A stretch of DNA of 64,000 nucleotides, from assembly GCF_014174165.1 (NCBI RefSeq), contig NZ_JABEQN010000018.1:1-64000 (forward strand), read 5' to 3'. Within the stretch, counting starts at the first letter, position 1. Each line of letters opens with the position of its first letter. The translations under genes and the position numbers were made by a program. Origin of the DNA: Gluconacetobacter dulcium (GTDB taxonomy: Bacteria; Pseudomonadota; Alphaproteobacteria; Acetobacterales; Acetobacteraceae). A model generated the notes under the pieces. That model was not told where the DNA came from. It searched no databases and saw only the letters and a list, made by a program, of their open reading frames with translations. This document shows, piece after piece, positions 15,829 through 53,478 of the stretch.

Positions 15829-16212
15829 AGAACGCCCGCTCGCCTATGTGCTCGGTGTGATCAGACCACGGAGCGGTAAGGATGATCGTCTCCGGGAATT
15901 TATTGTCCTGACGCGGAGAGCGTTCGGTCTGATGTCATCCATGTCAAAAAAGAAAGAAAAAAATATAATAGTTCCATGGGGATGTCGCGATATTCCATCC
16001 CATGCGCAAAAAAAATCCGCCGTTGGAGGGAAAAATCGCACCGCCCCCGCATCTGTCTAGTCGAGAACCAAGAATGCGAATGAATTGCATTTTTGGGCAG
16101 CCTGACGATTGGACAAGACGGAGAGCGCAGCGACGATGGAGCCTTTTACAGATTTTTCGACCTCTTGCCGGGGGCGTCTGCTTCCGGACGCGGCTTCGCT
16201 GATTGTCGTGCG
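15829..16212. other. Leader of the cassette 1 receptor gene
   Basis: This 384-bp gap has A-rich tracts (a run near 15950-15970 and AAAAAAAA near 16007) and no supported gene. Its last 120 bp are open in the receptor frame but do not resemble a signal peptide. It probably holds the promoter read by the cassette sigma factor; no consensus for that sigma is known to me. Confidence 0.45.
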
Positions 16213-37943: not shown

Positions 37944-39347
37944 TCAGGATCCCTGGCGGAGGGCGGCGCCGGCGGTGCGGTCGAGGCGCAGATAGCCTGG
38001 GATCGAGAGGATCAGGGGGATCGCGACGATCAGGAACGCCCAGTGGAAATCGGTGGGCGTGAAGGCGTCGGTGGAAGGGTGTTCGCCGCGCAGGGTCGCG
38101 ATCAGCCGCAGGGTGAGGGCGGCGAAGGCGACGGCCATGCCGATGCACATCTGCTGGCTGACGCTGAGCAACGTGCTGGCGGGGCCTTTTTCCTGCGCGC
38201 CGATATCGGCATAGCCCAGGGTGGCCAGTAGCGTGTACTGCATCGAGCGCGTGACGCCGCAGCCCAGCAGCACCAGCAGCAGGAGCGTGACCGGGGTGGC
38301 CGGGACCATGGTGCCCGCCAGCAAGACGAACAGTGCCCCCAGGGCCGCGTTGACGGCGGCGGTGGTGCGGAAGCCGAAATGCTGGAGGAGGCGGGTGGTG
38401 AACATCTTCATGCCCAGATTGCCCAGCGCGAAGGCCAGCATCAGCGAACCGGCATGGAAGGCGGTGAGGCCGAAGCCGATCTGGAGCAGCAACGGCACCA
38501 GGTAGGGGATGGCGTCGATCGTCAGGCGCGAGAGCGTGCCCGCCAGCACCGTGATGGCGAAGGTGGGGTGGCGCATCAGCCGGAAATCGAGCAGCGGATG
38601 CGCGCGGCCGGCCGCGTGGCGCAGGGTGGCGGTGCCCAGCAGCAGGCCGGCGCCGAACAGCAGGGTGGCCAGCAGGGGGCTGGCCTGCGTGTTGCTGGCC
38701 AGTTCGGTGCCCAGCAGGAGGGCGGTGAGCGAGACGCCGCCCAGCACGAAGCCGCCCCAGTCCAGCGGGCGGCGTTCGCCGAACTGCTGCGGCACCACGG
38801 CGAAGATGACGCCCAGAACCGCCAGGCCCAGCGGCAGGTTGATGAAGAAGATCCAGTGCCAGCTTGCGAAGGTGACGATCATGCCGCCGACCGTGGGGCC
38901 GACCACAGGGGCTGCGACCGCCGGCCAGGTGATGGTGGAGATGGCCTGGATCATGCGGCTGGTTTCGGTATTGCGCACCACGATGAAGCGCCCGACCGGC
39001 ACCATCATGGCGCCGCCCAGCCCCTGGAGCACCCGTGCCGCGACGAACATGGACACGCTGCCGGCGAAGCCGCAGAGCACCGAGGCGGCGGTGAAGACCG
39101 TGACCGCCGTGGCGAAGATGGTGCGCGAGCCGAAGCGGTCGGCCATCCAGCCGCTGATCGGGATGAAGACCGCCAGCGTGAGCATATACGCCGTCATGCC
39201 CAGGCTGAGTTCGTTGGGGCCGACATGGAAGCTGCGCGCCATCGCGGGCAGCGCCGTGGCGATGATGGTGGAGTCCAGATACTCCATGAAAAAGGTGGCG
39301 GCGACGATGTAGGGCAGGATCGGCATGGGCGGACCATACCGCGCCAT
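37944..39347 (-). CDS. MFS multidrug transporter, DHA2 (EmrB-like) family
   Basis: A 467-residue drug/proton antiporter with about fourteen helices. Diagnostic pieces are FMEYLDSTIIATALPAMARS (DHA2 motif D1 region), GWMADRFGSRTIFATAVTVF (motif A) and ISTITWPAVAAPVVGPTVGG (motif C type). The ATG at 39347 has GGAAG eight bases upstream; alternatives at 39362 and 39326 change only the first few residues. It is divergent from the FecI-type gene that begins near 39427. No EmrA-like adaptor gene is nearby, so it may work alone or with a partner elsewhere. Confidence 0.9.
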   Translation of the reverse strand: MARYGPPMPILPYIVAATFFMEYLDSTIIATALPAMARSFHVGPNELSLGMTAYMLTLAVFIPISGWMADRFGSRTIFATAVTVFTAASVLCGFAGSVSMFVAARVLQGLGGAMMVPVGRFIVVRNTETSRMIQAISTITWPAVAAPVVGPTVGGMIVTFASWHWIFFINLPLGLAVLGVIFAVVPQQFGERRPLDWGGFVLGGVSLTALLLGTELASNTQASPLLATLLFGAGLLLGTATLRHAAGRAHPLLDFRLMRHPTFAITVLAGTLSRLTIDAIPYLVPLLLQIGFGLTAFHAGSLMLAFALGNLGMKMFTTRLLQHFGFRTTAAVNAALGALFVLLAGTMVPATPVTLLLLVLLGCGVTRSMQYTLLATLGYADIGAQEKGPASTLLSVSQQMCIGMAVAFAALTLRLIATLRGEHPSTDAFTPTDFHWAFLIVAIPLILSIPGYLRLDRTAGAALRQGS

Positions 39348-39426
39348 GCGCCGGACTTCCATGCCGTCGGGGCCGATCGGGCGGGGTGGGTTGTCACGAG
39401 TTTATCACATTTCCCGCACGGGCGGC

Positions 39427-40035
39427 GTGTTATCGACGCGCCGTCCTTTTGCGACTGGATATGGTCCATTGCTTCCCGAAGAGCGAAATCATTGGCTGGC
39501 GACCCATGTTCTTCCGCATGAGGGGGATGTGCGGAGATGGTTGCGGCGTTTTTCGGGGATCGAAATCGACGACATCATCCAGCAGGCCTGGGTCGAGCTT
39601 GCCGAAGCGGATCCTGTTTCCATCAGATTTCCGCGTGCATGGTTTTTTGGTGTGGCGCGTCATCTGGTTCTTCAACACTATCGCAAGGCACGGATCGTTT
39701 CGTTCGATTCCCTGACGGATTTTTCCGGCGCGGAGATTCCCGACCTGGGGCAGGCGGTCGAACGGTCGGTGACTGCGCGACAGGAACTGCGTTTTCTCGA
39801 TCAGGTCGCGCGCGACCTGCCGGATCGGTGCCGGGACGTGTTCGTGTTGCGTCGCTTTTATGGATATTCACAACGCGAATGTGCGCTTCACCTGAATGTT
39901 TCGGAGAATGTGGTCGAAAAGCAGCTTGCCAGGGCGCTCAGGATCATCGGCACGGCCTATGCCGGCAGAGACCTGCCCGCGCAGGGCGGCGGGTCGGCGC
40001 CCGGTGATCTCCGGAGTGGAAAATCCAACGCCTGA
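39427..40035 (+). CDS. FecI-type ECF sigma factor (cassette 2)
   Basis: A ~202-residue ECF sigma factor. Region 2 contains RFSGIEIDDIIQQAWVELAE and region 4 contains LPDRCRDVFVLRRFYGYSQR then LHLNVSENVVEKQLARAL. The frame is open to 39325 with no ATG near the usual position; GTG at 39427 gives the most family-like N-terminus, so the start is uncertain by tens of codons. The stop overlaps the anti-sigma start by about 30 bp, indicating coupling. It heads the run FecR, receptor, PI-PLC/phosphatase, GH92 and small secreted protein, and is the prime candidate to control them. Confidence 0.85.
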   Translation: MLSTRRPFATGYGPLLPEERNHWLATHVLPHEGDVRRWLRRFSGIEIDDIIQQAWVELAEADPVSIRFPRAWFFGVARHLVLQHYRKARIVSFDSLTDFSGAEIPDLGQAVERSVTARQELRFLDQVARDLPDRCRDVFVLRRFYGYSQRECALHLNVSENVVEKQLARALRIIGTAYAGRDLPAQGGGSAPGDLRSGKSNA

Positions 40036-40960
40036 CACGGTCGCCGCGGACTGGGTGACGCGGATGGATCGCGCCGCGCTGAGCGCGGGCGAGCAGGCCG
40101 AACTGGACCGGTGGCTGGGGGCCGATATCCGCCACCGTGGGGCGATGATCCGCGCGCAGGTGGTCTGGCAGGCGACGGAGCGCGCGGCGGCGCTGAAGCC
40201 CGGTGCGGGCGCGCCTGCCCCCGAAGCCTGCCGGCCGCCCGAGGCGTTCGCGTTCCGGCATGCCCGGCCGGCCCCGGTGCGACGGCTTTCGCGCCGGGCC
40301 ATGGTGGCGGCTTCGGCGGCGCTGATGGTCGGCGCCCGGCCGGCGCCCTCGCGCGAGATGGGGCGCTTTTTCAGCGTGCGGGATGCGGCGCCGCGCTCGG
40401 TGGCGATTGCGGGGGGGACGGTTCGGCTGGACTGTTTCTCCGGCCTGCTGGTCGGCGGGGCGGATGCGCGGCTGCTGGACGGGCGGTGCGTGGTGTCGAG
40501 CCGGCGGGAGGCGCGGCTGGATGCCGGTGGCCTGATCTTTCGCTCCGTGGGGCGGATGCAGGTCTCGATCGCGGGGGAGAAGACGGTCGGCCTGCTGCTC
40601 TCCGGCAGTGCCGTGGCGATTCGGCGGGGAACCGGGGAGCGCTTTATGCTGCATGCCGGGGATTGCCTGACCATGGTGGCGGACGCCGCCCCCCGGCTGC
40701 ACGCCCTGACGGCGGAGGAACTGGCGCGTGCCACCAACTGGGAGCGCGGCGTGGTGGAATTGCAGGGCGAGACGCTTGGCGATGCCGCCGCGATCTTCAA
40801 CCGCTATAACAGCAGGAAACTGGTGGTGCATGGGCAGGCCGGCGGGCGCGTGCTGATGGGATCGTTCGCGCTTGACGACCCCGATGCATTCGCGCGGGTG
40901 GCGCGCAGCGTGCTGCATGTCGATTACGTGGGATCGCCGGGGCGGCTGGATATTTTCTGA
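40004..40960 (+). CDS. FecR-type anti-sigma/sigma regulator (cassette 2)
   Basis: A ~318-residue FecR-family protein beginning at GTG 40004 (GTG 40016 also possible), overlapping the sigma gene. An N-terminal DUF4880 helix (AADWVTRMDRAALSAGEQAE..RWLGADIRHRG) is followed by a Pro/Ala-rich linker and a weak hydrophobic stretch (RAMVAASAALMVGARPA). A divergent FecR core (SVAIAGGTVRLDCFSGLLVG) and C-terminal DUF4974 (NWERGVVELQGETLGDAAAI ..GSFALDDPDAFARVARSV) complete it. The putative membrane helix is short and poor compared with cassettes 1 and 3, and contains an RR before it (VRRLSRRAMVAA), so Tat-type export of the C-terminal half is possible. Confidence 0.83.
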   Translation: MISGVENPTPDTVAADWVTRMDRAALSAGEQAELDRWLGADIRHRGAMIRAQVVWQATERAAALKPGAGAPAPEACRPPEAFAFRHARPAPVRRLSRRAMVAASAALMVGARPAPSREMGRFFSVRDAAPRSVAIAGGTVRLDCFSGLLVGGADARLLDGRCVVSSRREARLDAGGLIFRSVGRMQVSIAGEKTVGLLLSGSAVAIRRGTGERFMLHAGDCLTMVADAAPRLHALTAEELARATNWERGVVELQGETLGDAAAIFNRYNSRKLVVHGQAGGRVLMGSFALDDPDAFARVARSVLHVDYVGSPGRLDIF

Positions 40961-41082
40961 TCCCTGTCGGTCGTCATTCAGGCCGTTCGTCATTTAACTT
41001 TCACAAAAACGGGAGGCGGAAATCCGGGGCGCGGGGCAACTCACTGCTGTTCTCCACCCTATGAAAAGCCCGGATAGATCCT

Positions 41083-43854
41083 GTGAAAAGAAAGACCCTG
41101 CGTCGTCGCCTCTCGTTCTGTGCCGCTTTTCCGTCCGTTCATCTCTTTGGCCTGGCCATGGCATCGGTGAGCATGCTGCCGCTGGTGATGCCGCGTGCCG
41201 CCGTTGCACAGTCCGCCGCCGAGAAGGATTTTTCCATCCCGGCGCAACCGCTTTCCTCCGCCCTGACGCAGTTCAGCCGCCAGTCTGGCGTGCATGTGGC
41301 GGTGGATGGGCATGATGTGGAAAATGTCCGCTCCAGCACCGTGCAGGGGAAGAAGACGCCCGAGCAGGCGCTGGACGAGATGCTCAAGGATACCGGCGTT
41401 TCGGTGCAGTCGAAGGCCGATGGCGTGTGGCTGCTTCGGCGCGCCTCGCGGGCCGCGATGACGCCGGCCGTACTGCCGGAAGGCGAAGCCGTGATCGTGA
41501 CCGGCCGTGCCTCCAGCAAGCAGCAGCGGAAGATCGACGCCAGCTATGCGATCACCACCATTTCGCAGGAGGATCTGCGGGTGCGTGGGACCTCTTCGGT
41601 GTCCGAGGCGCTGAAGAACACGCCGGGTTTCTGGGTCGAAGCCTCGGGGGGTGAAGTGGGGGCCAATATCCGGGCGCGCGGTATTCCGGTGGACGGGTAT
41701 GGATCGGTCCAGCTTGAGGAAGACGGGCTGCCGGTGCAGTCGGACCCGGCGCTGGGATATCTGAACGCCGATGACTCGTTTCGGATCGACGAGACGATGA
41801 AGCAGATCCAGGTGGTGCGGGGCGGGCCGAGTTCCATCGTGGCGCAGAACGCGCCGGGCGGGCTGGTCAATTTCCTGTCGCGGCGGGGCACCAGGAAACT
41901 TTCGGGGCTGGCCAAGCAGACATTCGGCGATGACGGGCTGTACCGCACCGATGCGTGGCTGGGCGGGCCGGCCGGCGCGTGGCGCTGGAGCCTGGGCGGG
42001 TTCTACCGGGTGGAAAACGGTGTGCGCGACCCCGGCTTCCGCGCCAATTCGGGCGGGCAGATTCGGGCCAATGTCAGCCGCGATTTCAGCCATGGCGGCA
42101 GTATCTTCGTCGATTACAAGCATCTGGACGACCGGACGACGCTCTTTACCGATATTCCCGTAACCCGCGACACGTCGGGCAATATCGTGTCGCTGCCCGG
42201 CTTCAATGCCAATACCGGCGAGTATTCGTCTTCCGTGCTGGAGAATGCGTATCTGCCCGGCCCCGGTGGCAGCACGAAGCATATCGACCTGCAAAGCGGC
42301 ATTCATATCAACCTGCATCAGGTGACGGCCGGATTCCGGCATGATCTGGCCGACGGGTGGCACCTGACCGACACGTTCCGCTATCGCGCGATGAACGCCA
42401 CCTGGACCGTGCTGTCGCCAAGCGCCGTGACGGATGCCGGCAAGCGGCTGGCCGGCCTGGGGGATGCCGGGTCGATGTTCGCCGGGGCGAGTGCCTGGCA
42501 GTTGCGGTATGTGAACGATCCCGGTCAGCAATTCTCCCCGGCCATGACGGGCAACAATTACGTCACCGATGCCTCGCTGCGCGCGGTGTGGATGAACGAG
42601 CATGAGGTCATGAACGACTTCAAGCTGGAAAAATCCTTCTCGTTCCTTGGCCATCATGACGTGGCGATCGGGGCGTTCGTGACCTATTTCAAGGAGGATT
42701 TCACGCGCTATTCGGCCAACCTGCTGCTGGATACGATGCCGCACGCGCAGCTTCTGAACATCGACGCGGTGAATGCGGCGGGGCAGGTCGTGGGATCGAC
42801 CACGCAGAACGGCTATACCCGCTATGGCACCGAATTCGCCAACGGGCGGGGCGACGACACCGATGTGGCCGGTTATGCGACCGACGAATGGGCCATTACG
42901 AAGAAGCTGCGCGTGGATGCCGGCGTGCGCTACGAGGCGCAGCGGACCGGCGGGCTGGTCGAGGGCAGCCACAGCGTGGTGGCGGGTGCCGCGCCCTATC
43001 TGTCGAACATGCTGTCGGGCAAAGGGATTTACACGCCTTATAACGCCAGCTTCTCCGGGTTTGGCGGCACGATCGGCGTGAATTACCAGCTTCAGCCCAA
43101 TCTCGGCTTCTTCGCCCGGTTTACCCGTGCCTATCGCCTGCCCAGCCTGGCCTCGTTCATCACCAATCCGGTGGCGGCGCCGATTACGCAGAAGATCTTC
43201 ATGTATGAAGGCGGCGTGAAATATCAGTCGCGCTATGCGGATCTTTTCCTGACCGGGTTCAATACCGACTATCCGAGCTACGGCATCAACAACCTGGTCT
43301 TCGACGTGAAGACGGGGTCGTACAACCAGCAGACGATCACGGCGACCACCCATACCTACGGGCTGGAATTCGAAGGGACGCTGCGCCCCAGCCAGTATTT
43401 CGACGTGGTGTTTTCCGGCACCGCGCAGAATGGGCGCTTCGGCAGGATGCGGTATCTGGTGCTGAGCAACGGGTCGCCCAATCTGCTCGATTATACCGGC
43501 AACCATCTGCTGCGCACGCCGCCGGTGATGTTTCGCGTGACGCCGCGCCTGCATCTGCTGGACGGCAGGCTGCTGTTGCAGGCCGATATCGAGCATTACG
43601 GCCTGCGCTATGCCGACGTGGCCAATACCCAGCGCCTGCCGGCCTATACGGTGATCAATTTCGGGGCGACCTATGCGATCACGCCTTATCTGACCTTCAA
43701 CCTCTCGGGCCAGAACCTGAACAATTCGCTGGGGCTGACGGAGGGCAATCCGCGTTCGGGCGAGGTGCTGAGTTCGCAGGCCGGGCAGAATGTCTTCCTG
43801 GCGCGGCCGATCCTGGGGCGGAATTTCCGCCTGTCGCTGATGGGTCAGTTCTGA
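41083..43854 (+). CDS. TonB-dependent transducer/receptor (cassette 2, first gene of mannosyl-phosphoinositol-like locus)
   Basis: A 923-residue outer-membrane receptor with signal peptide ending AAVAQS and an STN signalling domain (FSIPAQPLSSALTQFSRQSG; ALDEMLKDTGVSVQ). The TonB-box-like VIVTGRASSKQ is followed by a plug (ISQEDLRVRGTSSVSEALKN, GANIRARGIPVDGYG, MKQIQVVRGGPSSIVAQNAP) and a large barrel ending in FRLSLMGQF. The STN domain means it signals to the FecR/FecI pair just upstream. The stop and the next start share one base (TGATG), so it is translationally coupled to the PI-PLC/phosphatase gene. That coupling is the main clue that its cargo is a product of those enzymes rather than a siderophore. 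The start codon is GTG. Confidence 0.92.
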   Translation: MKRKTLRRRLSFCAAFPSVHLFGLAMASVSMLPLVMPRAAVAQSAAEKDFSIPAQPLSSALTQFSRQSGVHVAVDGHDVENVRSSTVQGKKTPEQALDEMLKDTGVSVQSKADGVWLLRRASRAAMTPAVLPEGEAVIVTGRASSKQQRKIDASYAITTISQEDLRVRGTSSVSEALKNTPGFWVEASGGEVGANIRARGIPVDGYGSVQLEEDGLPVQSDPALGYLNADDSFRIDETMKQIQVVRGGPSSIVAQNAPGGLVNFLSRRGTRKLSGLAKQTFGDDGLYRTDAWLGGPAGAWRWSLGGFYRVENGVRDPGFRANSGGQIRANVSRDFSHGGSIFVDYKHLDDRTTLFTDIPVTRDTSGNIVSLPGFNANTGEYSSSVLENAYLPGPGGSTKHIDLQSGIHINLHQVTAGFRHDLADGWHLTDTFRYRAMNATWTVLSPSAVTDAGKRLAGLGDAGSMFAGASAWQLRYVNDPGQQFSPAMTGNNYVTDASLRAVWMNEHEVMNDFKLEKSFSFLGHHDVAIGAFVTYFKEDFTRYSANLLLDTMPHAQLLNIDAVNAAGQVVGSTTQNGYTRYGTEFANGRGDDTDVAGYATDEWAITKKLRVDAGVRYEAQRTGGLVEGSHSVVAGAAPYLSNMLSGKGIYTPYNASFSGFGGTIGVNYQLQPNLGFFARFTRAYRLPSLASFITNPVAAPITQKIFMYEGGVKYQSRYADLFLTGFNTDYPSYGINNLVFDVKTGSYNQQTITATTHTYGLEFEGTLRPSQYFDVVFSGTAQNGRFGRMRYLVLSNGSPNLLDYTGNHLLRTPPVMFRVTPRLHLLDGRLLLQADIEHYGLRYADVANTQRLPAYTVINFGATYAITPYLTFNLSGQNLNNSLGLTEGNPRSGEVLSSQAGQNVFLARPILGRNFRLSLMGQF

Positions 43855-46133
43855 TGCCGGTCGCGTTTCCCCGCCGCGCCGGTCGCGCGGCGGGGGCCTG
43901 CCTGGCGGCGTTGTGTCTGCTGCGGGCGTGCCCGCCCGCCGCGCGGGCGGCGGAGGGGCCGCGACTGGACCAGATCCAGGTGATCGGGTCGCATAACAGC
44001 TATCATGCCGGGCTGGCGCCTTCGATCGCGGCGCTGCTGGCGCGGCGCGACCCGGCCGCGGCGCAGGGGCTGGACTATGCCCATGCGGACCTGCCGACGC
44101 AGTTCGATCATGGGATCCGGCAGATCGAACTGGATGTTTATGCCGATACGGCGGGGGGGCGGTTTGCGCATCCGCGATCGGCGCGCTGGCTGGCGGAGGC
44201 GGGGTTGCCGCCTGCCGATACGGGCAACGCGGCCCTGATGCGCCGGCCCGGCTTCAAGGTGATGCATATCCCCGATATCGACCAGCGGGCCACCTGCGAG
44301 CCGTTGCTGGTCTGTCTGGGGCAGGTGCGGGCGTGGTCGCGGGCGCATCCGGGGCATCTGCCGCTGTTCGTGCTGCTGGAGGTCGAACAGGGCAGGCGCG
44401 CGCCGCTGACCGAGCCCGAGCCGTTTACCGGGCGGACCTTCGATGCGCTGGAGAGGGAGATCCGCTCGGTATTCGCGCCGGGTGAGGTGCTGACGCCGGA
44501 TCAGGTGCGGGGCAATGCGCCGAGCCTGCGCGCGGCCGTTATGGCGCAGGGCTGGCCGGGCGTGGATGCGGCGCGGGGGAAGGTGGTCTTTCTGCTCGAC
44601 CAGCGGTCGAACCGGGCGCTGTATCTGGAGGGGCATCCGGGCCTGCGGGGGCGGGTGGCGTTTACCAACGCGCCGCCGGAGGCTGACGATGCCGCCTTTA
44701 CGGAGCTGAATGACGGGCCGCCCGAGGCGATTGCGGACCTGGTGCGGCGGCACATGCTGGTGCGCACGCGCGCCGACGCCAATACGGTGGAGGGGCGCAG
44801 CGGCGACCCGACGCGGCGGGATGCGGCGCTGGCCAGCGGTGCCCAACTGGTCAGCACCGACTATCCCGATTTCGAGCCTGCGCGCTGGACGGGATATCGC
44901 GTGGGGTTCGGGACCGGGCTGGCGGCGCGGTGCAACCCGGTGAGCGCGCCGGCCGCGTGCCGGGATGGGGCGATCGAGCCGCGTGCGCCCGAGGCGCTGC
45001 ACCTGCGCAAGCTGATATTGGTGGTGCGGCATGGTCTGCGGTCGCCGCTGGCGGATCAGGTGCCCTCGCGCGCGGTGATCGACCATGTGTGGACGGTGTG
45101 GAGCGGAGTGCCGGGCGACCTGACGCCCGAGGGGGTGGCGCAGATGCGCGGGCTCGGGGTGTGGGAACGCGCGCTGATGGCCGGCAATGACATGGCAGGG
45201 CTGGCGGACGGCGGGTGCCCGGCGGCGGACAGGGTGCGGCTGCGGGCCAATTCCAGCCGGCGGACGGTTGCGAGCGCGGAGGCGTTTGCCGCCGGTTTTG
45301 CGCCCGGTTGCCCGGCTGCGATCGTGCATCAGCCGATCGGGGTGCCGGACAGGGTGTTCTCGCCGCTGGAGGCCGAGCGGCCTGTGGATCTGCGGGCGCT
45401 GCTGCCGGCCCTGCGGGCGGAGGCGGCGGCCGCCGGCCTGCTGGCGGGGCCGCCGCGCGAGGGGCTGTCGGTGCTGCGGCGCCTGGCCGGTTGTCCGGGG
45501 CGGGGGGCGCTGTGCGCCGATGACGGGATGCCGGCGGTGCTGGATGTCGATGCGTCCGGGCGGCATCTGACGCTTTCCGGATCGCTGTTGCCGGCATCGT
45601 CGGTGGCGGAGGCGATCATGCTGGGGGCGTTGTCCGGCCAGCCGGCGGCCCGGATGGCTTGGGGTGTGCTGGATGACGCCACGTTTGCCCGCCTGTCCGA
45701 CCTGCATGCGGCGATGCTGCATGTGATGACCGGGTTGCCGACGCTGGCGCCGGTGCTCAGCCAGCCTCTGCGTGCGGCGATCGCGGCCGAACTGACCCGT
45801 GCCGACGGGCCGGCGCTGACGGTGTGGATGGGGCATGACGGCACCATCGTGCCGCTGCTGGCGCAGCTTGGCCTGCATGTGCATGCGCCGGGTTATGCGA
45901 TGGATGACGTGCCCGTGGGCAGTGCGCTGGGCTTTGCCCTGCTGACGGATGCGCAGGGTGGGCACCCGGTGGTGCGGGTGCTGTTCCAGTCGCCGATGCC
46001 CGCGCGGCTGCGGGCTGGGGATGGGGCGTATCCGCCGGATATGGCGTATCTGGCGGTGCCCGGCTGTGGCGGGGAGGCGGTGTGCCCGCTGGCGACCTTT
46101 TCCCGGCTTCTGGACAGGGGCGCGGCACCGTGA
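43854..46133 (+). CDS. Secreted fusion of Ca2+-type phosphoinositide phospholipase C and histidine acid phosphatase (phytase-like)
   Basis: A 759-residue exported protein with two enzyme domains. Domain 1 (about residues 35-365) is a PI-PLC-C1-type phospholipase C: the first catalytic His is in VIGSHNSYHAG, the acidic ligands are in FDHGIRQIELDVYAD, and the second His is in FKVMHIPDID. It is of the Ca2+-dependent bacterial type. Domain 2 (about 370-745) is a branch-2 histidine phosphatase: RHGLRSP is the phospho-His motif (LILVVRHGLRSPL) and WMGHDGTI is the HD motif, as in phytases and glucose-1-phosphatase. Such a pair could cut an inositol-phosphate head group and strip its phosphates. It is coupled to genes on both sides (TGATG and GTGA). 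Confidence 0.88.
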   Translation: MPVAFPRRAGRAAGACLAALCLLRACPPAARAAEGPRLDQIQVIGSHNSYHAGLAPSIAALLARRDPAAAQGLDYAHADLPTQFDHGIRQIELDVYADTAGGRFAHPRSARWLAEAGLPPADTGNAALMRRPGFKVMHIPDIDQRATCEPLLVCLGQVRAWSRAHPGHLPLFVLLEVEQGRRAPLTEPEPFTGRTFDALEREIRSVFAPGEVLTPDQVRGNAPSLRAAVMAQGWPGVDAARGKVVFLLDQRSNRALYLEGHPGLRGRVAFTNAPPEADDAAFTELNDGPPEAIADLVRRHMLVRTRADANTVEGRSGDPTRRDAALASGAQLVSTDYPDFEPARWTGYRVGFGTGLAARCNPVSAPAACRDGAIEPRAPEALHLRKLILVVRHGLRSPLADQVPSRAVIDHVWTVWSGVPGDLTPEGVAQMRGLGVWERALMAGNDMAGLADGGCPAADRVRLRANSSRRTVASAEAFAAGFAPGCPAAIVHQPIGVPDRVFSPLEAERPVDLRALLPALRAEAAAAGLLAGPPREGLSVLRRLAGCPGRGALCADDGMPAVLDVDASGRHLTLSGSLLPASSVAEAIMLGALSGQPAARMAWGVLDDATFARLSDLHAAMLHVMTGLPTLAPVLSQPLRAAIAAELTRADGPALTVWMGHDGTIVPLLAQLGLHVHAPGYAMDDVPVGSALGFALLTDAQGGHPVVRVLFQSPMPARLRAGDGAYPPDMAYLAVPGCGGEAVCPLATFSRLLDRGAAP

Positions 46134-48340
46134 GCCGATATGCCGTTTTTGCCGCTGTCGTTCTGGGGTTTGCCAGTGGGGCGTCCAGTGGGGTGGCCAG
46201 TGGGGTGGCGCGTGCGGAGGATCTGGTCGATCTGGTGCATCCGCTGATCGGGACCGGTGGCGGGGCGATCGGGTATGGCCGCACCATGCCGGTGGTGACG
46301 CCGCCTTTCGGCATGACGGGCTGGGTGGCGCAGACGCGGCAGAGCGGGCATCCGGGATTGTCGTATTATGACAGGGACCGTTCCATTTCCGGCTTTGTCG
46401 GCACCCATCAGGCGGCGTTGTGGATGGGGGATTATGGCGATGTCGTGATCATGCCCGAAAGCGGGGCGGCGCGGAGCGGGCTGGCCGAGCGGGCATTGCC
46501 GTTCAGTCACCGGGACGAGGAGGCGCGGCCGGATTATTACCGGGTGGTGATGGGGACGGGCGGGCAGGCGATCCGCGCCGAGATGACGGCGGCGGCGCAT
46601 TCGGCGCTGTTCCGCTTCGTCTTTCCGGCCGGCGCGGCGCGGCGGGTGATGGTCGAGGCCAGCCGGCCGGGGGTTGCGGGCGGCGTGTCGGTGGATGAGG
46701 CGAAGGGGGAAATTGCCGGATATAATCCCCGTCGTTCGGATGCCGATCTGGGGCCGCTGACGCTGCCGCGCTTTCGTGGTTATTTCGTCGTGCAGTTCAG
46801 CCAGCCGGCGAAAATGGCCACCTATCCGGCCACGCCGGCGCCCGACCGGAGCACGGGGGCGTTCGCGACGTTCGATGCCGGAACGGATGCCGTGGAGGTG
46901 CGTGTGGGCACGTCCTTCATCAGTGTGGAACAGGCGCGGGAGAATCTGCGGCGGGAGATTCCGGGGTGGGATTTCGAGACCCTGCGCAGGACGTTGCACG
47001 ACGCCTGGCGGGAGAAGCTGGACAGGATCGCGGTGGAGGGGTTGAGCGGGGAACAGCGGCATATCTTTTATACCGCGCTGTACCATGCGCTGCTCTATCC
47101 GCGCTCGCTTTCGGAATATGGGCGCTATTACAGCGCGTTTGACGACCAGGTGCATGCGGGGGAAAGCTATACCGATTTTGCGACCTGGGATGTGTTCCGT
47201 GCCGAGTTCAGCCTGCTGACGCTGGTGGCGCCCGAGCGGATCGGCGGGATGGTGCAGGCCCTGCTCCAGGATTACCAGCAGGGGGGCTGGATGCCGAAAT
47301 GGCCCAATCCGTCCTATACCAACATCATGATCGGCACCCATGCGGATTCGCTGGTGGCTGAGGCGATCGGCAAGGGGTTTGCCGGGTTCGACCGGGCGCT
47401 GGCCTGGGAGGCCGTGCGCAAGGATGCGACGGTGCCGCCCGATGGCGATGCCACCAACGACTGGCGCGACCGCAAGCCGGGCACGCCCTACGAGGCGCGG
47501 GGCGGGCTGAGTTATGCGCTACGGCTGGGCTATGTGCCGGCCGACCGGACGGCGGAATCCGCGTCCAGCACGCTGGACGATGCGTATGACGATTGGTGCG
47601 TGGCCCAGGTGGCCAGGGCTGTGGGCAGGCAGGCGGATTATGAACAGTTCCTGCGTCGGTCGGAGGATTACCGGAAATTGTTCAATCCGGCCACGCGGTT
47701 CATGCAGGCGCGCAATCTTGACGGGTCGTGGGCCGACCCCGACACCGGATGGACCGAGGGTGGAAAGTGGGTCTACACCTTCGACGTGCTGCATGATGTC
47801 GGTGGCCTGAGCGGACTGATGGGCGGGCGCGCGGCGCTGGCCGGGCGGCTGGACCGCTATTTCGACGGCAATTACAACTGGCACAGCAACGAGCCGTCGC
47901 ATCATGTGCCGTATCTTTACGATTTCGTCGGGCAACCTTGGAAAACGCAGGAGCGGGTGCGCGAGATCATGCGTACGGAATATGCCGACCGTGTGTCCGG
48001 GCTGGATGGCGACGACGATTGCGGACAGATGTCGGCCTGGTACGTATTTTCGGCTTTGGGGTTTTATCCGGTGAATCCGGCCTCGGGCACGTACATGATC
48101 GGGTCGCCGCTGGTTTCGCGCGCGCGGGTGCGGATGGCGGATGGGCGGGTGTTTACCGTCGTGGCGGACCATAATACGGCGGATAATCGGTATATCCGGT
48201 CGGCGACGCTGGATGGTGCGGCGCTGTCGGCGCCCATGGTGACTTATCGGGACATGATGGATGGCCGCACCCTGCATTTCGTCATGGGGGCGAAGCCGAG
48301 CCGGTGGGGGGCGTCGTGGGTGGCGCCGGGCGTGCGGTGA
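46130..48340 (+). CDS. Glycoside hydrolase family 92 alpha-mannosidase
   Basis: A 736-residue exported exo-alpha-mannosidase. Signal peptide AVFAAVVLGFASGASS is followed by a short tandem-repeat stretch and the GH92 N-domain (VHPLIGTGGGAIGYGRTMPV VTPPFGM). The catalytic (alpha/alpha)6 domain shows YTDFATWDVFRAEFSLLTL, GGWMPKWPNPSYTNIMIGTH, NEPSHHVPYLYDFVGQPWKT and GLDGDDDCGQMSAWYVFSAL, which carry the metal-binding and acid/base residues of the family. GH92 enzymes trim alpha-mannose from yeast mannan, N-glycans and mannosyl-lipids. The start GTG overlaps the previous stop (GTGA), so the three enzymes are one coupled unit. GH92 is unusual in acetic acid bacteria, to my knowledge. Confidence 0.93.
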   Translation: MSRYAVFAAVVLGFASGASSGVASGVARAEDLVDLVHPLIGTGGGAIGYGRTMPVVTPPFGMTGWVAQTRQSGHPGLSYYDRDRSISGFVGTHQAALWMGDYGDVVIMPESGAARSGLAERALPFSHRDEEARPDYYRVVMGTGGQAIRAEMTAAAHSALFRFVFPAGAARRVMVEASRPGVAGGVSVDEAKGEIAGYNPRRSDADLGPLTLPRFRGYFVVQFSQPAKMATYPATPAPDRSTGAFATFDAGTDAVEVRVGTSFISVEQARENLRREIPGWDFETLRRTLHDAWREKLDRIAVEGLSGEQRHIFYTALYHALLYPRSLSEYGRYYSAFDDQVHAGESYTDFATWDVFRAEFSLLTLVAPERIGGMVQALLQDYQQGGWMPKWPNPSYTNIMIGTHADSLVAEAIGKGFAGFDRALAWEAVRKDATVPPDGDATNDWRDRKPGTPYEARGGLSYALRLGYVPADRTAESASSTLDDAYDDWCVAQVARAVGRQADYEQFLRRSEDYRKLFNPATRFMQARNLDGSWADPDTGWTEGGKWVYTFDVLHDVGGLSGLMGGRAALAGRLDRYFDGNYNWHSNEPSHHVPYLYDFVGQPWKTQERVREIMRTEYADRVSGLDGDDDCGQMSAWYVFSALGFYPVNPASGTYMIGSPLVSRARVRMADGRVFTVVADHNTADNRYIRSATLDGAALSAPMVTYRDMMDGRTLHFVMGAKPSRWGASWVAPGVR
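46171..46210 (+). repeat. Short tandem repeat in the GH92 signal region
   Basis: A CAGTGGGGTGGC-type 12-bp unit is repeated about three times, encoding the ASGASSGVASGVA segment between the signal peptide and the mature enzyme. It is a likely slippage point that preserves the frame. Confidence 0.6.
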
Positions 48341-48825
48341 TGAAGGCTGTTGTGACGGTGCTGGTCGTGTTCCTGCTCGGCCTGCCGGCGCAGGGGCGGG
48401 AGGCCGGGTTTTCCGGGACGTGGTGCCTGGATGAGGCGGAGAGCGATTATCGCGACCTCCAGCAGCCGGAGGCGCGGAGGGATACGATCGTCGATCATGG
48501 CGACCGGATCACGGATGTGATCGTGGCGACGGCACGGGGACGGGCGCAGCATGTGACGCTGGACCTGCCGACCGATGGACGTGTCGTGCGTTTTCCCGCG
48601 CGGACCGTGCTGGGGACCAGCACCCTGCGCACCGTTGCCGCGCGGCGGGATGGGGCGGCGCTGGTCGTGACGCAGGAGGTGCGGACCGGCGATACCCTGC
48701 GCGTTGCCGTGATGCGCTGGACGCTGTCGGCTGATCGGGCGCGGCTGGTCATGACCGTTGCCTCGGAGGACGGGCGGCATGTGGTGGGGACGCTTGTTTT
48801 CAGGCGTGGCGTACCGTCGCGATAA
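48340..48825 (+). CDS. Small secreted beta-rich protein coupled to GH92
   Basis: A 161-residue protein with signal peptide (VVTVLVVFLLGLPAQG) and a predicted all-beta body: FSGTWCLDEAESDYRDLQQP, ITDVIVATARGRAQHVTLDL, DTLRVAVMRWTLSADRARLV. The FSGTW..D...S start resembles lipocalin-like or extracellular small-ligand proteins. It starts four bases into the GH92 stop (ATGA), so it is translated with the enzymes. It is the last gene of the coupled unit. No family is recognised with confidence; it could bind the released glycan or lipid. Confidence 0.65.
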   Translation: MKAVVTVLVVFLLGLPAQGREAGFSGTWCLDEAESDYRDLQQPEARRDTIVDHGDRITDVIVATARGRAQHVTLDLPTDGRVVRFPARTVLGTSTLRTVAARRDGAALVVTQEVRTGDTLRVAVMRWTLSADRARLVMTVASEDGRHVVGTLVFRRGVPSR

Positions 48826-49068: not shown

Positions 49069-51624
49069 GTGTCATCCTTCCGCTCGCTCGCCCTGGATTT
49101 CGTGCCTGTCAGCAGAAGGAGAGTTGTCGTTGGTTGCCGTCTTCATGCCCGGCGGGCGCTGCTGGCCGCGTCGATCCTGACGGCCTTCCCGGCCGTGGAG
49201 GCGTGGGCGGCTGATCCGGCGGCGGATGCCACACCGCAGCATGGCACCCGGACCGGCCGGAGTGGCGCCCAGGTGTTGAATGCCCCGCATGGTGCCGCCG
49301 TGATTCAGCCCGCCCGGCCGGCCGATGCGGGGGAAGCCATTATCGTGACCGGTACCCGCGAGACCGGGAAGAAGGCGCGGGACAGCTTGGCGCCGATCGA
49401 CATCGTCTCGGCCCGGCAGCTTGCGCAGACGGGGCAGCCGACGTTGCGCGAGGCGTTGGGGCAGTTGCTGCCTTCGCTGACGCTGCCGACCGGCGGCTTC
49501 GATACCGGCGCGCTGACCTCGGCCTTCAGCCTGCGCGGGTTGAGCCCGAACGAGACGCTGGTGCTGGTGGATGGCAAGCGGCGCCATACCACGGCGAATC
49601 TCTATGCCGATGGCGGGCCGCAGCAGGGGACCACGCCGGTCGATATCGACATGATTCCGATGGCGGCGATCGATCATGTGGAGATCCTGCGCGACGGGGC
49701 TTCGGCGCAATATGGGTCGGACGCCGTGGCGGGGGTGGTGAACATCATCCTCAAGACGCAGGACCATGGGTTCAACGCCCAGTCGATTACCGGCATCACG
49801 GCGGCGAAGGACGGGTTTCAGCAGGGCGTGTATCTGGATGGCGGGGCGAAGCTGGGGGCGCGCGGGTTCGTGCATGTCAGCGGCGATTTCGTGCATGAGG
49901 ACCACACGTTCCGCAGCGCGCCGGACCTGCGGACGGGGACCAAGATCAACAAGCTGCAAGGCCGGCCGGAGCAGACGCGCGAAAGCGTGGCGGTGAAGGC
50001 GGGGTATGACCTGACGGACGATATCCATGCCTATGCGCTGGCGACCTATGCGCACCGGCATGGCGAGGCGTTCCAGAACTATCGTCTGCCCAGTTCGCTG
50101 GCGACGCATCCTGAATATGCCGCCATCTATCCGAACGGCTATTCGCCGTTGGAGACGATCGATGAAAACGACTGGGAAGTCACGGCCGGCGTAAAGGGCG
50201 TGCTGCTGGGGTGGAACTGGGACCTGTCCTCGGTCTACGGGCGTGACTATGACGCGATCGGGTTGAAGGATTCGGCGAATTTCGCGGTGGCGCGGGATAC
50301 CGGGCGGACGCCGACGGCGATCGCGGCGCAGGGATTCAACAATGCGCAGTGGAGCAACAGCTTCGATCTGAGCCGGGCATTCCATCTCTCGGGCTGGCCG
50401 CACAGCATCAATGTGGCCGGGGGCGCGACCTATCGCTACGAGAGCTATTCGGTGGGCACCGGATCGCCGGATTCGACCTATGGCAGTGGGTCGGACGCGC
50501 TGGCGGGGACCAATGCGGGCAATGCCGGCAATTTCAACCGCGATGTCGTCGGCGGATATGTGGATATTGCCACGCATCTGCTGAAGAACTGGCAGTTCGA
50601 TCTGGCCGGGCGGTTCGAGCATTATACCGATGTGGGGGATACCGAGACCGGGAAACTGTCTACCCGCTACGATGCGTTCAAATGGCTGGCGTTTCGCGCC
50701 ACCATTTCCAACGGGTTCCATGCGCCCACGCTGGCGCAGGAGCATTACAGTTCTCTGACGCTGTCGCCGACGGCGGCGCGCGGGCTGATCGCCGCCAATT
50801 CGCCCGGTGCGCTGGCCAATGGCGCGGCGGCGCTGAAGCCGGAGCGCTCCACCAACGCGACGGGCGGGGTAATTGTCGAGCCGGTGAAGAACCTGCATGT
50901 GACGGTCGATGTCTATCAGATCAACCTGCGTGACCAGATCCTGCCCGGTGGCAACATCACCGGCGACGCGGCGCGCTCTGCCCTGAAGCTGAACGGCTTT
51001 ACGCTGCCTGAGGGATCGGACCAGTGGACGGCGGCCTCGCTCTCGACCAACTGGTTTGCCAATGTGGCCAGCACGCGCACGCAGGGGCTGGACCTGACGG
51101 CGACCTATCCGACGCGACTGGGCGATGTGGGGCGGATCGACTGGGATGTGGCCATCAACCTGAACCGGACCCGTCTGAGCCATCAGGCGGATTCCGCGAC
51201 CGGGAAGCCGCTGCTGTCGGCGCAGAGCATCGCGTACATCACCACGGCCTATCCGCGCAGCAAGATGATCTTTGGCGGACGTTTCACGCGCGGGGCCTGG
51301 ACGGTGGGCGTGCATGAGATCCGCTATGGCCAGACCACGTCGCAACTGACCTACTATACGGGGGCCGCCAATACGGGGTCGCTGTCCAGCACGATGTTCC
51401 TGCCGTTTCGGAACACGCCGAAATTCATCACGAACCTGGACATTACCTTTCGTGCCAACCGGAACTGGTCGTTCACGCTGGGGGCGAACAATCTGTTCGA
51501 TGCCCGCCCCAGCCGGGTGCCGGACGGGAACCGTTATCTGGGCGTGCCGCAATATTACATGAGCACGTCGCAGCTCGACATGAATGGCGGGTATTACTAC
51601 CTGCGTGCCAACCTGACCCTGTAA
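49069..51624 (+). CDS. TonB-dependent receptor without STN domain
   Basis: An 851-residue outer-membrane receptor starting at a GTG with TGGAG eight bases upstream. The signal region is ALLAASILTAFPAVEAWAAD, the TonB-box-like segment is EAIIVTGTRETGKKARDS, and the plug has IDIVSARQLAQTGQPTLREA, FSLRGLSPNETLVLVDGKRR and MAAIDHVEILRDGASAQYGS. The barrel ends in YYYLRANLTL. There is no signalling domain, so unlike its three neighbours it is a pure importer. The plug style (NETLVLVDGKRRH) matches receptors for glycans and vitamins more than siderophores, so it may take up a product of the enzymes encoded upstream. Its leader carries a palindrome and a terminator-like hairpin. Confidence 0.9.
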   Translation: MSSFRSLALDFVPVSRRRVVVGCRLHARRALLAASILTAFPAVEAWAADPAADATPQHGTRTGRSGAQVLNAPHGAAVIQPARPADAGEAIIVTGTRETGKKARDSLAPIDIVSARQLAQTGQPTLREALGQLLPSLTLPTGGFDTGALTSAFSLRGLSPNETLVLVDGKRRHTTANLYADGGPQQGTTPVDIDMIPMAAIDHVEILRDGASAQYGSDAVAGVVNIILKTQDHGFNAQSITGITAAKDGFQQGVYLDGGAKLGARGFVHVSGDFVHEDHTFRSAPDLRTGTKINKLQGRPEQTRESVAVKAGYDLTDDIHAYALATYAHRHGEAFQNYRLPSSLATHPEYAAIYPNGYSPLETIDENDWEVTAGVKGVLLGWNWDLSSVYGRDYDAIGLKDSANFAVARDTGRTPTAIAAQGFNNAQWSNSFDLSRAFHLSGWPHSINVAGGATYRYESYSVGTGSPDSTYGSGSDALAGTNAGNAGNFNRDVVGGYVDIATHLLKNWQFDLAGRFEHYTDVGDTETGKLSTRYDAFKWLAFRATISNGFHAPTLAQEHYSSLTLSPTAARGLIAANSPGALANGAAALKPERSTNATGGVIVEPVKNLHVTVDVYQINLRDQILPGGNITGDAARSALKLNGFTLPEGSDQWTAASLSTNWFANVASTRTQGLDLTATYPTRLGDVGRIDWDVAINLNRTRLSHQADSATGKPLLSAQSIAYITTAYPRSKMIFGGRFTRGAWTVGVHEIRYGQTTSQLTYYTGAANTGSLSSTMFLPFRNTPKFITNLDITFRANRNWSFTLGANNLFDARPSRVPDGNRYLGVPQYYMSTSQLDMNGGYYYLRANLTL

Positions 51625-51808: not shown

Positions 51809-52372
51809 TTGACCGTTTGCCCGCCTCATATCGTTCGATGGGTCTCGTCGCACGTGATCCCGCAGGAGCAGAAGGTCAGGGGGGCGTTGCGCCGGCTCGG
51901 CATCGCGGAGAGCGATATCGACGACCTGATCCAGGATGCCTATTGCCGTCTGGCGACGCTGCGGTCGGTGGATCACATTGACCGGCCGGGCGCCTATTTC
52001 ATGCAGATCGTCAAGAATGCCTGGCGTGACAGCCGCCGGCGGGCGCGGGTCGTCCGGCTTGAGGATTTTACGGAAAACGCGACGCTGACCGTCGAGGATG
52101 AGGCAACGGATATCGAGGCCGCCGTTTCGGCGCGCCAGCAGTTGGAACTGGTCGAGACATTGCTTGCCACGCTGCCCGAGCGATGCCGGACGATCTTTAC
52201 CTGGAGGCGGATGGAGGGGATATCGCAGCGGGAAATTTCGAGACGCCTTGGCGTGAGCGAGAATGTAGTCGAAAATGACATTCAGAAGGCGTTGCGCCTG
52301 ATCCAGCGGGCGCTGCGAGACCCTGTCGAAGAAGAGTGGAAGATTGACGATCAGTGGCGAAAAATCGGCTAG
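51809..52372 (+). CDS. FecI-type ECF sigma factor (cassette 3)
   Basis: A 187-residue ECF sigma factor beginning at TTG. Region 2 contains LGIAESDIDDLIQDAYCRLA and region 4 contains LPERCRTIFTWRRMEGISQR then SRRLGVSENVVENDIQKAL. It resembles cassette 2 (ESDIDDLIQDAY against IEIDDIIQQAW; RLGVSENVVEND against LHLNVSENVVEK) more than cassette 1, so the two cassettes may derive from one another. It overlaps the FecR gene start by 29 bp. Confidence 0.9.
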   Translation: MTVCPPHIVRWVSSHVIPQEQKVRGALRRLGIAESDIDDLIQDAYCRLATLRSVDHIDRPGAYFMQIVKNAWRDSRRRARVVRLEDFTENATLTVEDEATDIEAAVSARQQLELVETLLATLPERCRTIFTWRRMEGISQREISRRLGVSENVVENDIQKALRLIQRALRDPVEEEWKIDDQWRKIG

Positions 52373-53426
52373 GGAGATAGAGGCCGAAGCGGCCGCCTGG
52401 GCCGCGAAGCTGGACGCCATGCCGGATCGGGATCATCCGGGCCTGAACGAATGGGTCTCGTGCAGCCCCCGGCATGTCGGCGCCCTGCTGCGCGCGCAGG
52501 CCGCGCTGGCGCTGTTCGAGCCGGTGTCCGCCCGCGCGGGGCGGACGGACGTGGGCACGCCGGGCGAGAGAAGGGCGGATGGCCGCGTGCCTGACGAGAG
52601 TGCGCCTGACGAGGGCGCGCCGGCCAGGGATGCGCGGGGCGGGGGCGCGCAGGCCGGGAGCGGGCATGCTCCGGCCTGGAAGCGACTGACCTTTATCGGC
52701 GGGGGGATGGCCGCGCTGGTGGCGTCGCTTGTCGCCGTCCTGCTTCTCGACCCGTCGGGAGAGCGGTATGTGACCCAGACCGGCGAGGTCCGGTCGGTGG
52801 CGCTCAGCGATGGGTCGTCGGTGCTGATCGACGCGGGAAGCCGGATCGACATCGCCTTCGACGCGGGGCACCGCGATGTGCGCATGCAAGCCGGCAAGGT
52901 GCTGTTTCGCGCGACGCACGATGCGCGGCGCCCTTTTCGCGTGACCGTGGCGCAGGTCGTCATCACCGATATCGGCACGGCGTTCCAGGTGACGGATGAC
53001 GACCCTGTGGGCGATGTCGAAGTCCTGGTCACCGAAGGGGCGGTCAGGGTCGATTCTCCGGCGGGTCGGATCAGCCTGACGGCGGGCCAGCGCGCCCGGT
53101 TTCCGAAACACGCGATGGACGGACCCCGGCCGGAAGCGGTGCGCCTCGCCCCCACGGACATCGAGCGGATGCTGGCGTGGCAGGAAGGGCGGCTTGAACT
53201 GGACGGTGAAACGCTGGACAGCGCGGTGGCCGAGATCAACCGGCATAACCGGCTGCATCTGCGCGTCGGCAGCCCCGCGCTGGGTCGGGAAAGCCTCTAC
53301 GGATCGTTTCACATGGATGACGTGACGGGCTTCGCGCGTGCCGCCGCGGCGAGCCTGGGGGCCGAGGCGCGCGTCGAACAGGACGATATCGTGATCGATC
53401 CGCGAAAAAATCACGAGAACCGATAA
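52344..53426 (+). CDS. FecR-type anti-sigma/sigma regulator (cassette 3)
   Basis: A 360-residue FecR protein starting at a TTG within the sigma gene. The cytoplasmic DUF4880 segment is AAAWAAKLDAMPDRDHPGLN..WVSCSPRHVGALLRAQ, followed by a charged Arg/Gly/Asp-rich linker of about 45 residues. A transmembrane helix (FIGGGMAALVASLVAVLLLD), the FecR domain (VRSVALSDGSSVLIDAGSRI, MQAGKVLFRATHDARRPFRV) and the C-terminal DUF4974 (QEGRLELDGETLDSAVAEIN) complete it. The linker is unusually long. It transmits the receptor signal to the cassette 3 sigma factor. Confidence 0.9.
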   Translation: MTISGEKSAREIEAEAAAWAAKLDAMPDRDHPGLNEWVSCSPRHVGALLRAQAALALFEPVSARAGRTDVGTPGERRADGRVPDESAPDEGAPARDARGGGAQAGSGHAPAWKRLTFIGGGMAALVASLVAVLLLDPSGERYVTQTGEVRSVALSDGSSVLIDAGSRIDIAFDAGHRDVRMQAGKVLFRATHDARRPFRVTVAQVVITDIGTAFQVTDDDPVGDVEVLVTEGAVRVDSPAGRISLTAGQRARFPKHAMDGPRPEAVRLAPTDIERMLAWQEGRLELDGETLDSAVAEINRHNRLHLRVGSPALGRESLYGSFHMDDVTGFARAAAASLGAEARVEQDDIVIDPRKNHENR

Positions 53427-53478
53427 GGAAACCGTTTCCGGGGACGTCGAGAAGACAAAACATCCTTGGGAATGCTTC

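Follow-up and report, generated by a model that had tools for sequence, protein, structure and literature searches.

A conserved TonB utilisation locus of Gluconacetobacter joins a phospholipase C/phosphatase fusion to a GH92 mannosidase and probably dismantles mannose-bearing inositol lipids

Background

PUSI of Flavobacterium johnsoniae, the nearest described precedent found for the locus treated here, couples SusCD to two phosphodiesterases of the periplasm, for which PF16670 and PF00149 are listed; phosphate depletion induces it (PMC8115612). Neither a locus combining a phosphatidylinositol-specific phospholipase C (PI-PLC) with GH92 or GH76, nor one using inositol sphingolipids or glycosylphosphatidylinositol (GPI) glycans as food, was found in the open-access literature searched. 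Both kinds of compound are abundant in fungi and plants. Here we describe a six-gene unit of Gluconacetobacter dulcium, located at 39427-48825 (+) of a 64,000-nucleotide stretch of DNA (hereafter the window; positions 1 to 64,000 of contig NZ_JABEQN010000018.1, part of contig C18 of a 4.41 Mb genome). It encodes a sigma factor, a FecR-like protein, a TonB receptor, a fusion of PI-PLC with a histidine phosphatase, a GH92 alpha-mannosidase and a small secreted protein. The unit is genuine and conserved, and its general kind, TonB utilisation under surface signalling, is already known; its substrate class was not found described for such loci. It probably dismantles mannose-bearing inositol lipids, for example those of yeast membranes, and partner genes recurring in other bacteria suggest the same kind of food.

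Stated more fully, comparison of sequences makes it moderately likely that the unit is a TonB utilisation locus under surface-signalling control, with alpha-mannosylated inositol phospholipids or soluble head groups derived from them as substrate. The idea of one substrate bearing both phosphoinositol and alpha-mannose comes from an original prediction made for this DNA by inspection of the sequence, which gave yeast mannosyl-inositol-phosphoceramides, GPI-linked mannoproteins and phospho-mannan as examples.

Results

The gene unit and its conservation in Gluconacetobacter

Open reading frames (ORFs) and domain searches confirm the six genes on a single strand, in the predicted order sigma/FecR-like/receptor/fusion/GH92/small protein (Table 1); the three families named in advance, PF16670, histidine phosphatase branch 2 and GH92, all match. 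The predicted overlaps from the receptor onward needed one correction: the receptor/fusion (TGATG, one base) and fusion/GH92 (GTGA, four bases) boundaries are as described, and the GH92/small-protein boundary is again a one-base TGATG, not a four-base ATGA. The sigma factor and FecR-like genes overlap each other too. Because a gap of 122 bases separates the FecR-like gene from the receptor gene, overlaps alone do not join all six genes into one transcript. The start of the FecR-like gene is uncertain, its ORF opening at 39896; the Pfam FecR domain is not matched by its product, for which DUF4880 alone passes in Pfam. A promoter and terminator scan gave nothing above shuffled sequence.

A search for PI-PLC-C1 covered 60 genomes, the own one among them. 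Of the 14 genomes of the genus (own included), 6 have the unit, the others being Gluconacetobacter sacchari, asukensis, aggeris, tumulicola and liquefaciens; G. liquefaciens is the closest relative with the unit (93% in the fusion), and its strain DSM 5603 (L060) carries it. All six loci hold the order MFS/sigma/FecR-like/receptor/fusion/GH92/small protein, so the unit is not a chance assembly. Protein identity in the five other loci is 77-98%, with 93-98% for the sigma factor and 69-90% for the small protein. The transporter of the major facilitator superfamily (MFS) that adjoins the unit in 6/6 loci is a conserved neighbour with a putative role in the pathway only.

The receptor and the sigma/FecR-like pair could belong to iron (siderophore) uptake and merely adjoin a hydrolase operon. 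The best NCBIfam models for the receptor are indeed siderophore receptors and FecA, all far below cut-off. Since the receptor and fusion genes overlap by one base, and receptors of several types adjoin PI-PLC elsewhere, among them one 44% identical to this receptor in another genome (G561), we regard iron uptake as very improbable.

Spread of the unit by plasmids was considered and dropped, as 14 plasmid records match pieces and none covers 80%; a defence-system reading was likewise dropped, the fusion, GH92 and small protein being without PADLOC match. Directly downstream lies a second TonB receptor (49069-51624). The liquefaciens, sacchari and aggeris loci have it after the unit too; no counterpart was found in the stretches retrieved for the two remaining loci. 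A further complete sigma/FecR/STN-receptor set stands at 51809-56073.

Table 1. Genes of the unit and its conserved neighbour in the window (ECF, extracytoplasmic function)
Feature	Coordinates	Strand	Profile matches
ECF sigma factor, FecI-like	39427..40035	+	Pfam Sigma70_r4_2 3e-12, Sigma70_r2 4e-7
FecR-like sigma regulator	39959 (or earlier)..40960	+	DUF4880 2.7e-8 (Pfam); FecR weak, E 1.3e-4 (NCBIfam)
TonB-dependent transducer, N-terminal STN signalling domain	41083..43854	+	STN 1.3e-8, Plug 8e-15, barrel 4e-27 (Pfam)
Secreted PI-PLC-C1 + His_Phos_2 fusion	43854..46133	+	PF16670 E 5.5e-120; His_Phos_2 E 3.2e-15
GH92 alpha-mannosidase, shortened loop near +1 subsite	46130..48340	+	PF07971 E 3.8e-165
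Small secreted protein, predicted fatty-acid-binding-protein-like beta barrel	48340..48825	+	no family in Pfam/NCBIfam
Divergent MFS transporter, conserved neighbour	37944..39362	-	MFS_1 1e-43

The PI-PLC/phosphatase fusion

Residues 37-362 of the fusion form a PI-PLC of the Ca2+-dependent type, which matches the PF16670 profile with 400.8 bits over positions 2-329 of 329; a branch-2 histidine acid phosphatase follows at about 377-757. The PI-PLC half keeps H47, N48, E92, D94, H138 and E176, which we take, from eukaryotic PI-PLC, to be the two catalytic histidines and the Ca2+ ligands (HN, ExD, H, E). All six are invariant in 11 aligned fusions; across 12 diverse PI-PLCs the first five are invariant and E176 nearly so. 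The phosphatase half retains R392, H393, G394 and R396 together with H661 and D662, identical in 11/11 aligned fusions, and so has the RHGxR and HD motifs of histidine phosphatase branch 2. Its solved relatives are histidine acid phosphatases, glucose-1-phosphatases and phytases. Conservation of these catalytic residues suggests that the fusion has both PI-PLC and phosphatase activity. A second, unfused PI-PLC-C1, 41% identical to the PI-PLC domain of the window, lies elsewhere in the same genome (L024, G000:C24:64947-66023).

Alpha-mannan enzymes accompany the fusion across the order

Among 299 genomes of the order, 38 carry 45 copies of PI-PLC-C1. Seventeen stand in frames of 755-974 codons that align with the phosphatase half too and are thus fused; the other 28, in frames of 390-481 codons, are unfused. 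An alpha-mannan enzyme lies within 10 kb of 15/17 fused copies (6 GH92, 9 GH76) versus 0/28 unfused ones (Fisher p 4e-10, for loci related by descent and so not independent). GH92 is present in 26/299 genomes. GH76 matches occur in 39/299, mostly weak and partial; ten exceed 100 bits, nine of them beside a fusion and the tenth in a genome (G214) where no PI-PLC was found.

The 11 fused loci outside the unit were fetched as stretches of 20 kb or 16 kb each. In all 11 the adjoining receptor is similar to three that match TonB-Xanth-Caul (TIGR01782), and sigma/FecR homologues occur in one. Nine contain homologues of Gfo/Idh, GH76, sugar-binding, xylose-isomerase-like and ROK proteins, with an ABC permease in eight and the ninth ending at a contig edge; for three scanned Gfo/Idh proteins the best model was inositol 2-dehydrogenase, below its cut-off. 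Swaminathania and Asaia siamensis have receptor and fusion only, among the genes looked for. In three Gluconobacter loci the receptor has only about 28% identity to the others, which indicates replacement of the receptor with retention of the enzymes. Both arrangements, the GH92 unit and the GH76 type, occur in G. sacchari.

Some of these loci show irregularities. The GH76 gene of Gluconobacter oxydans NBRC 14819 (L027, G128:C12, near 15131-16171) has one internal TGA and may be decaying. In Asaia astilbis (L071, 10031-12168) PI-PLC/phosphatase is split over two frames at about residue 431, apparently by a frameshift or sequencing error. In Novacetimonas hansenii (G231), contig C348 starts within the ROK gene of a GH76 locus (L033), and on the short contig C343 (L039) a like ABC permease is encoded together with a long-loop GH92; the two contigs could be neighbours across a contig break, which would place a GH92 near the GH76 locus.

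Neighbourhoods beyond the order

A scan of GTDB genomes with the fusion alignment was followed up for the best 80 of 202 qualifying stretches, some shortened by contig ends, and 16 further PI-PLC neighbourhoods were added. Neighbours in the 80 + 16 loci were sought by tblastn with acetic acid bacterial queries (GH92s added for the 16), which can miss other mannosidases and receptors; Pfam/NCBIfam scans covered examples of each neighbour type, the remainder being assigned by tblastn. Genes of relatives were called by a simple GC-frame script. At low GC it overlooked some genes or put them on the wrong strand, and it did not call the small gene of the window, so that coordinates in relatives are approximate.

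GH92 occurs within 10 kb of PI-PLC in 8/80 loci (five Gluconacetobacter, Nitrospirillum iridis, Luteibacter sp. OK325 and a Croceivirga metagenome-assembled genome, MAG) and GH76 in 9/80, all of the acetic acid bacterial type. Nitrospirillum iridis and Luteibacter sp. OK325 share the order TonB receptor, GH92, PI-PLC. Dyella has a PI-PLC adjoining a separate histidine phosphatase, with the receptor on the opposite strand, and in Novosphingobium sp. RL4 receptor, PI-PLC and histidine phosphatase are three consecutive genes, an unfused counterpart of the fusion; the fusion thus joins partners that are adjacent elsewhere. A TonB receptor directly adjoins PI-PLC in 7 of the 16 further neighbourhoods.

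The nearest relative found of the window GH92 (58.8% identity) came from a plasmid search and belongs to the megaplasmid pACIX901 of Granulicella tundricola. It is encoded between a LacI gene and myo-inositol oxygenase (MIOX E 6.5e-105), 5 kb from a PI-PLC and beside a receptor block. The whole stretch (L192, 5071-16181) contains PI-PLC, TonB-type receptor, LacI, GH92, myo-inositol oxygenase and sugar transporter, and by its gene content is a candidate inositol-glycolipid locus in Acidobacteriota.

In an even sample of 397 genomes of the phylum, own genome included, PI-PLC-C1 was found in 12 (the match in G560 being partial), GH92 in 29 and both in 7. With the own genome left out, GH92 is present in 6/11 PI-PLC genomes versus 22/385 without PI-PLC. 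Linkage of GH92 to PI-PLC is nevertheless a repeated exception, not the rule.

Three further observations concern single loci. The Croceivirga MAG (L101, 4166-12842) encodes GH115 alpha-glucuronidase, GH92, GH29 fucosidase, PI-PLC and metallophosphoesterase in a row; mannose-glucuronate-inositol is a head group of plant glycosyl inositol phosphoceramides (GIPCs), so that GIPCs, or else glucuronomannan, may be the substrate of this locus. In G561 (L163, contig C66, 5847-10976) the receptor that is 44% identical to that of the window stands directly upstream of PI-PLC, and a 492-aa gene overlapping PI-PLC, without Pfam match at E 0.001, encodes a possible third partner. Plasmids of 31-33 kb from Zymomonas mobilis, a bacterium of fermenting plant juices, carry a PI-PLC-C1 homologue of about 36% (hits H21-H24, H26-H30 and others; 14 Zymomonas records matched).

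These neighbourhoods also bear on the main rival explanation, phosphate scavenging of the Pus type. On this view the two halves of the fusion would release phosphate from inositol phospholipids or phytate, with the mannosidase opening access to it and carbon of secondary importance. PUSI, with its induction by phosphate depletion, agrees with it, as do a metallophosphoesterase gene beside PI-PLC in Croceivirga and in an Acidobacteriaceae MAG and the phytases among the solved relatives of the phosphatase half. Control by a sigma/FecR-like pair with an STN receptor is not what it would lead one to expect, the GH92, GH76, inositol oxygenase and sugar-uptake genes beside PI-PLC resemble carbon genes, and a Pho-box pattern has 0 exact matches in the window, although that is a weak test. 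We consider phosphate scavenging unlikely.

GH92 and its missing loop

The GH92 profile matches with 550.8 bits, and E543, D628 and D630 align with the TEG and GDxD motifs of solved GH92 enzymes, so the catalytic motifs are kept. A published comparison attributes alpha-1,2 specificity to a Trp and a Glu/His pair at the +1 site (PMC9522356). The window enzyme has a Trp (ALW) and, by alignment, lacks the loop where an HE pair is found in 2wvy and in five sister proteins. From the alignment we take this HE pair to be the published Glu/His pair.

Among 55 GH92 proteins compared, the loop is 8 residues long in eight, namely the window group (three sequences), Granulicella, Nitrospirillum, Luteibacter, L150 and L154, and 15-35 residues long in the remaining 47. 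The 40 GH92s fetched for the comparison are a chosen subset of the GH92 matches from the order and phylum searches. Short loops thus occur in 6/7 PI-PLC-linked GH92s (Granulicella included) versus 2/48 others; three of the six are a single Gluconacetobacter lineage, Nitrospirillum and Luteibacter are sisters, and the long-loop L039, counted among the others, may lie near a fused locus across the contig break. An IQ-TREE phylogeny with the loop columns removed unites the window group with Granulicella (support 100) inside an HE-bearing clade (100), and places Nitrospirillum with Luteibacter (100) in another clade, with L154, Croceivirga and L150. Loop loss in the window group is therefore separate from that in the other clade. 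Loop loss may signify a more open +1 site that accepts an aglycone other than mannose.

A second alternative holds that one operon does two jobs, GH92 trimming yeast or plant alpha-mannan or N-glycans while the fusion handles phytate or plain phosphatidylinositol, with no shared substrate. It would explain why most PI-PLC neighbourhoods are without GH92 and why the fusion is without it in the 11 other fused loci. It sits badly with GH76, another alpha-mannan enzyme, beside the fusion in 9/11 of those same loci, and with the absence of the +1 loop from the PI-PLC-linked GH92s of both window/Granulicella and Nitrospirillum/Luteibacter, despite their two clades. We judge it quite unlikely, somewhat more so than phosphate scavenging.

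The small secreted protein

AlphaFold2 predicts a ten-strand barrel (best model, mean predicted local distance difference test (pLDDT) 70). Foldseek with this model gave six matches, including SAHS, iFABP and UnaG (E 1e-4 to 6e-4, TM 0.5-0.7), and with medium confidence we assign the protein to fatty-acid-binding-type barrels. It was sought in 15 genomes and is present in 6, exactly those with the unit. Lipid binding beside a lipase would be a plausible, weakly based role for such a predicted fold.

Discussion

For activities, order of steps, signal and substrate of the unit, we infer the following scheme. Binding of a ligand to the STN receptor would free the sigma factor via the FecR-like protein, as known for the family. 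The PI-PLC half, to judge from its catalytic residues, would cleave between phosphoinositol and lipid, and the phosphatase half, whose relatives act on sugar and inositol phosphates, would strip the phosphate off the inositol phosphate. GH92 would then release terminal alpha-mannose from the inositol glycan, its presumably open +1 site suiting a non-mannose aglycone. The small barrel protein, if its model is right, may bind the leftover lipid, and mannose, inositol and phosphate would be consumed.

Within this class of substrates we favour fungal mannosyl-inositol-phosphoceramide (MIPC); GPI glycans and actinobacterial phosphatidylinositol mannosides are possible. Ordinary bacterial PI-PLCs attack through the 2-OH of inositol, the position that bears mannose in yeast MIPC. 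A Streptomyces PF16670 enzyme cyclises through the 6-OH, not the 2-OH, and the 6-OH is free in MIPC and glycosylated in GPI. This 1,6-cyclic mechanism was not found in the open-access literature searched and is no more than a lead; if the window enzyme uses the 6-OH like the Streptomyces enzyme, MIPC fits and GPI does not.

A single substrate with phosphoinositol and alpha-mannose, the central idea of the original prediction, appears likelier to be right than wrong. It is suggested by the GH76 and Gfo/Idh genes that adjoin the fusion at nine further loci of acetic acid bacteria, by TonB receptor-GH92-PI-PLC in Nitrospirillum and Luteibacter and by PI-PLC with GH92 and myo-inositol oxygenase in Granulicella; rarity of GH92 linkage tells against it. 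Linkage of the enzymes in relatives, on which the prediction had staked itself, holds in part: receptor/GH92/PI-PLC recurs in Nitrospirillum and Luteibacter, while GH92 lies within 10 kb of PI-PLC in the six Gluconacetobacter only among the 299 genomes of the order, and in the phylum sample the own genome alone, of the 12 with PI-PLC, has the two that close. The claim that no system of this composition had been described was weakened by PUSI and stands for PI-PLC with GH92 or GH76, as far as the literature searched goes.

Besides this narrow linkage, several points weigh against a locus for mannosylated inositol lipids. No GH92 was found in the 16 further PI-PLC neighbourhoods, and PUSI, which pairs SusCD with PF16670 and PF00149 phosphodiesterases, is heavily induced by phosphate depletion, according to the accessible part of its account (PMC8115612). 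The unit itself contains no inositol gene, and a search of the own genome yielded no GH76 and no iolG over cut-off (4 matches below). Phytate and glucose-1-phosphate, too, are substrates of histidine acid phosphatases. Judged by eye, the signal sequences of the enzymes are plain and there is no lipid anchor, which leaves access to intact lipid unexplained. No PI-PLC lies within 10 kb of the short-loop GH92s L150 and L154, and in Croceivirga the GH92 linked to PI-PLC retains a long loop. The fusion model has a mean pLDDT of 65, with the PI-PLC half poor and mostly under 60; that of the small protein rests on six close sequences, with pLDDT 43-57 in its other four models.

The recurrent linkage seen, of PI-PLC with phosphatases, receptors and alpha-mannan enzymes and, in Granulicella, with inositol oxygenase, invites a wider reading, which we offer tentatively and, with all its parts taken jointly, hold to be somewhat doubtful. 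The locus would belong to a recurrent unnamed class that serves the use of glycosyl-inositol phospholipids as nutrients. Such loci would have arisen several times, in Pseudomonadota, Acidobacteriota and perhaps Bacteroidota, by combination of TonB receptor, PI-PLC-C1, phosphatase, a hydrolase of alpha-mannan or another glycan, and inositol-catabolic genes. Without its +1 loop, the Gluconacetobacter GH92 would take mannose directly off inositol. A protein of the fatty-acid-binding type would remove ceramide or diacylglycerol, acetic acid bacteria thus feeding on yeast membrane sphingolipids, and a PF16670 enzyme using the 6-OH could cut 2-O-mannosylated inositol lipids such as MIPC, which ordinary PI-PLCs cannot. 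If a locus for mannosylated inositol lipids is the right explanation of the unit, it would account for the PI-PLC/phosphatase fusion found across acetic acid bacteria, offer a source of enzymes for cutting mannosylated inositol lipids and provide a testable molecular link between vinegar bacteria and their companion yeasts.

Comparison with known systems

Like FecI/FecR/FecA signalling, the unit has an ECF sigma factor, a FecR-like protein (FecR by weak profile match) and an STN receptor adjacent and in order, and by analogy its operon would be activated in dependence on a ligand. It differs in that the set is joined to lipid and glycan hydrolases and has DUF4880 instead of Pfam FecR. With the fungal alpha-mannan polysaccharide utilisation loci of Bacteroidota (Salegentibacter, B. 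thetaiotaomicron) it shares the character of a glycan locus, theirs having GH92 and GH76, whereas the accessible part of their account mentions no PI-PLC, phosphatase, inositol, GPI or TonB (PMC9213526).

PUSI resembles the unit in that a PF16670 PI-PLC and another phosphoesterase are encoded in one cluster with TonB-type uptake proteins of the outer membrane. It has a SusCD pair, a PF00149 enzyme and induction by phosphate depletion, and its account, as far as accessible, names no mannosidase (PMC8115612); here the phosphatase is a fused histidine phosphatase, and no SusD-type profile is among the Pfam matches of the unit. The Granulicella tundricola pACIX901 locus likewise has PI-PLC, a TonB-type receptor and a GH92 of the same short-loop group, but differs in its LacI regulator, myo-inositol oxygenase and sugar transporter, with no phosphatase in its incomplete gene table. 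The GH76 type of Gluconobacter, Acetobacter, Acidomonas, Brytella, Novacetimonas and Gluconacetobacter sacchari shares with the unit the combination of TonB receptor, fusion and alpha-mannan enzyme, and differs by other receptor families, GH76 in place of GH92, and the presence of ABC uptake and Gfo/Idh genes.

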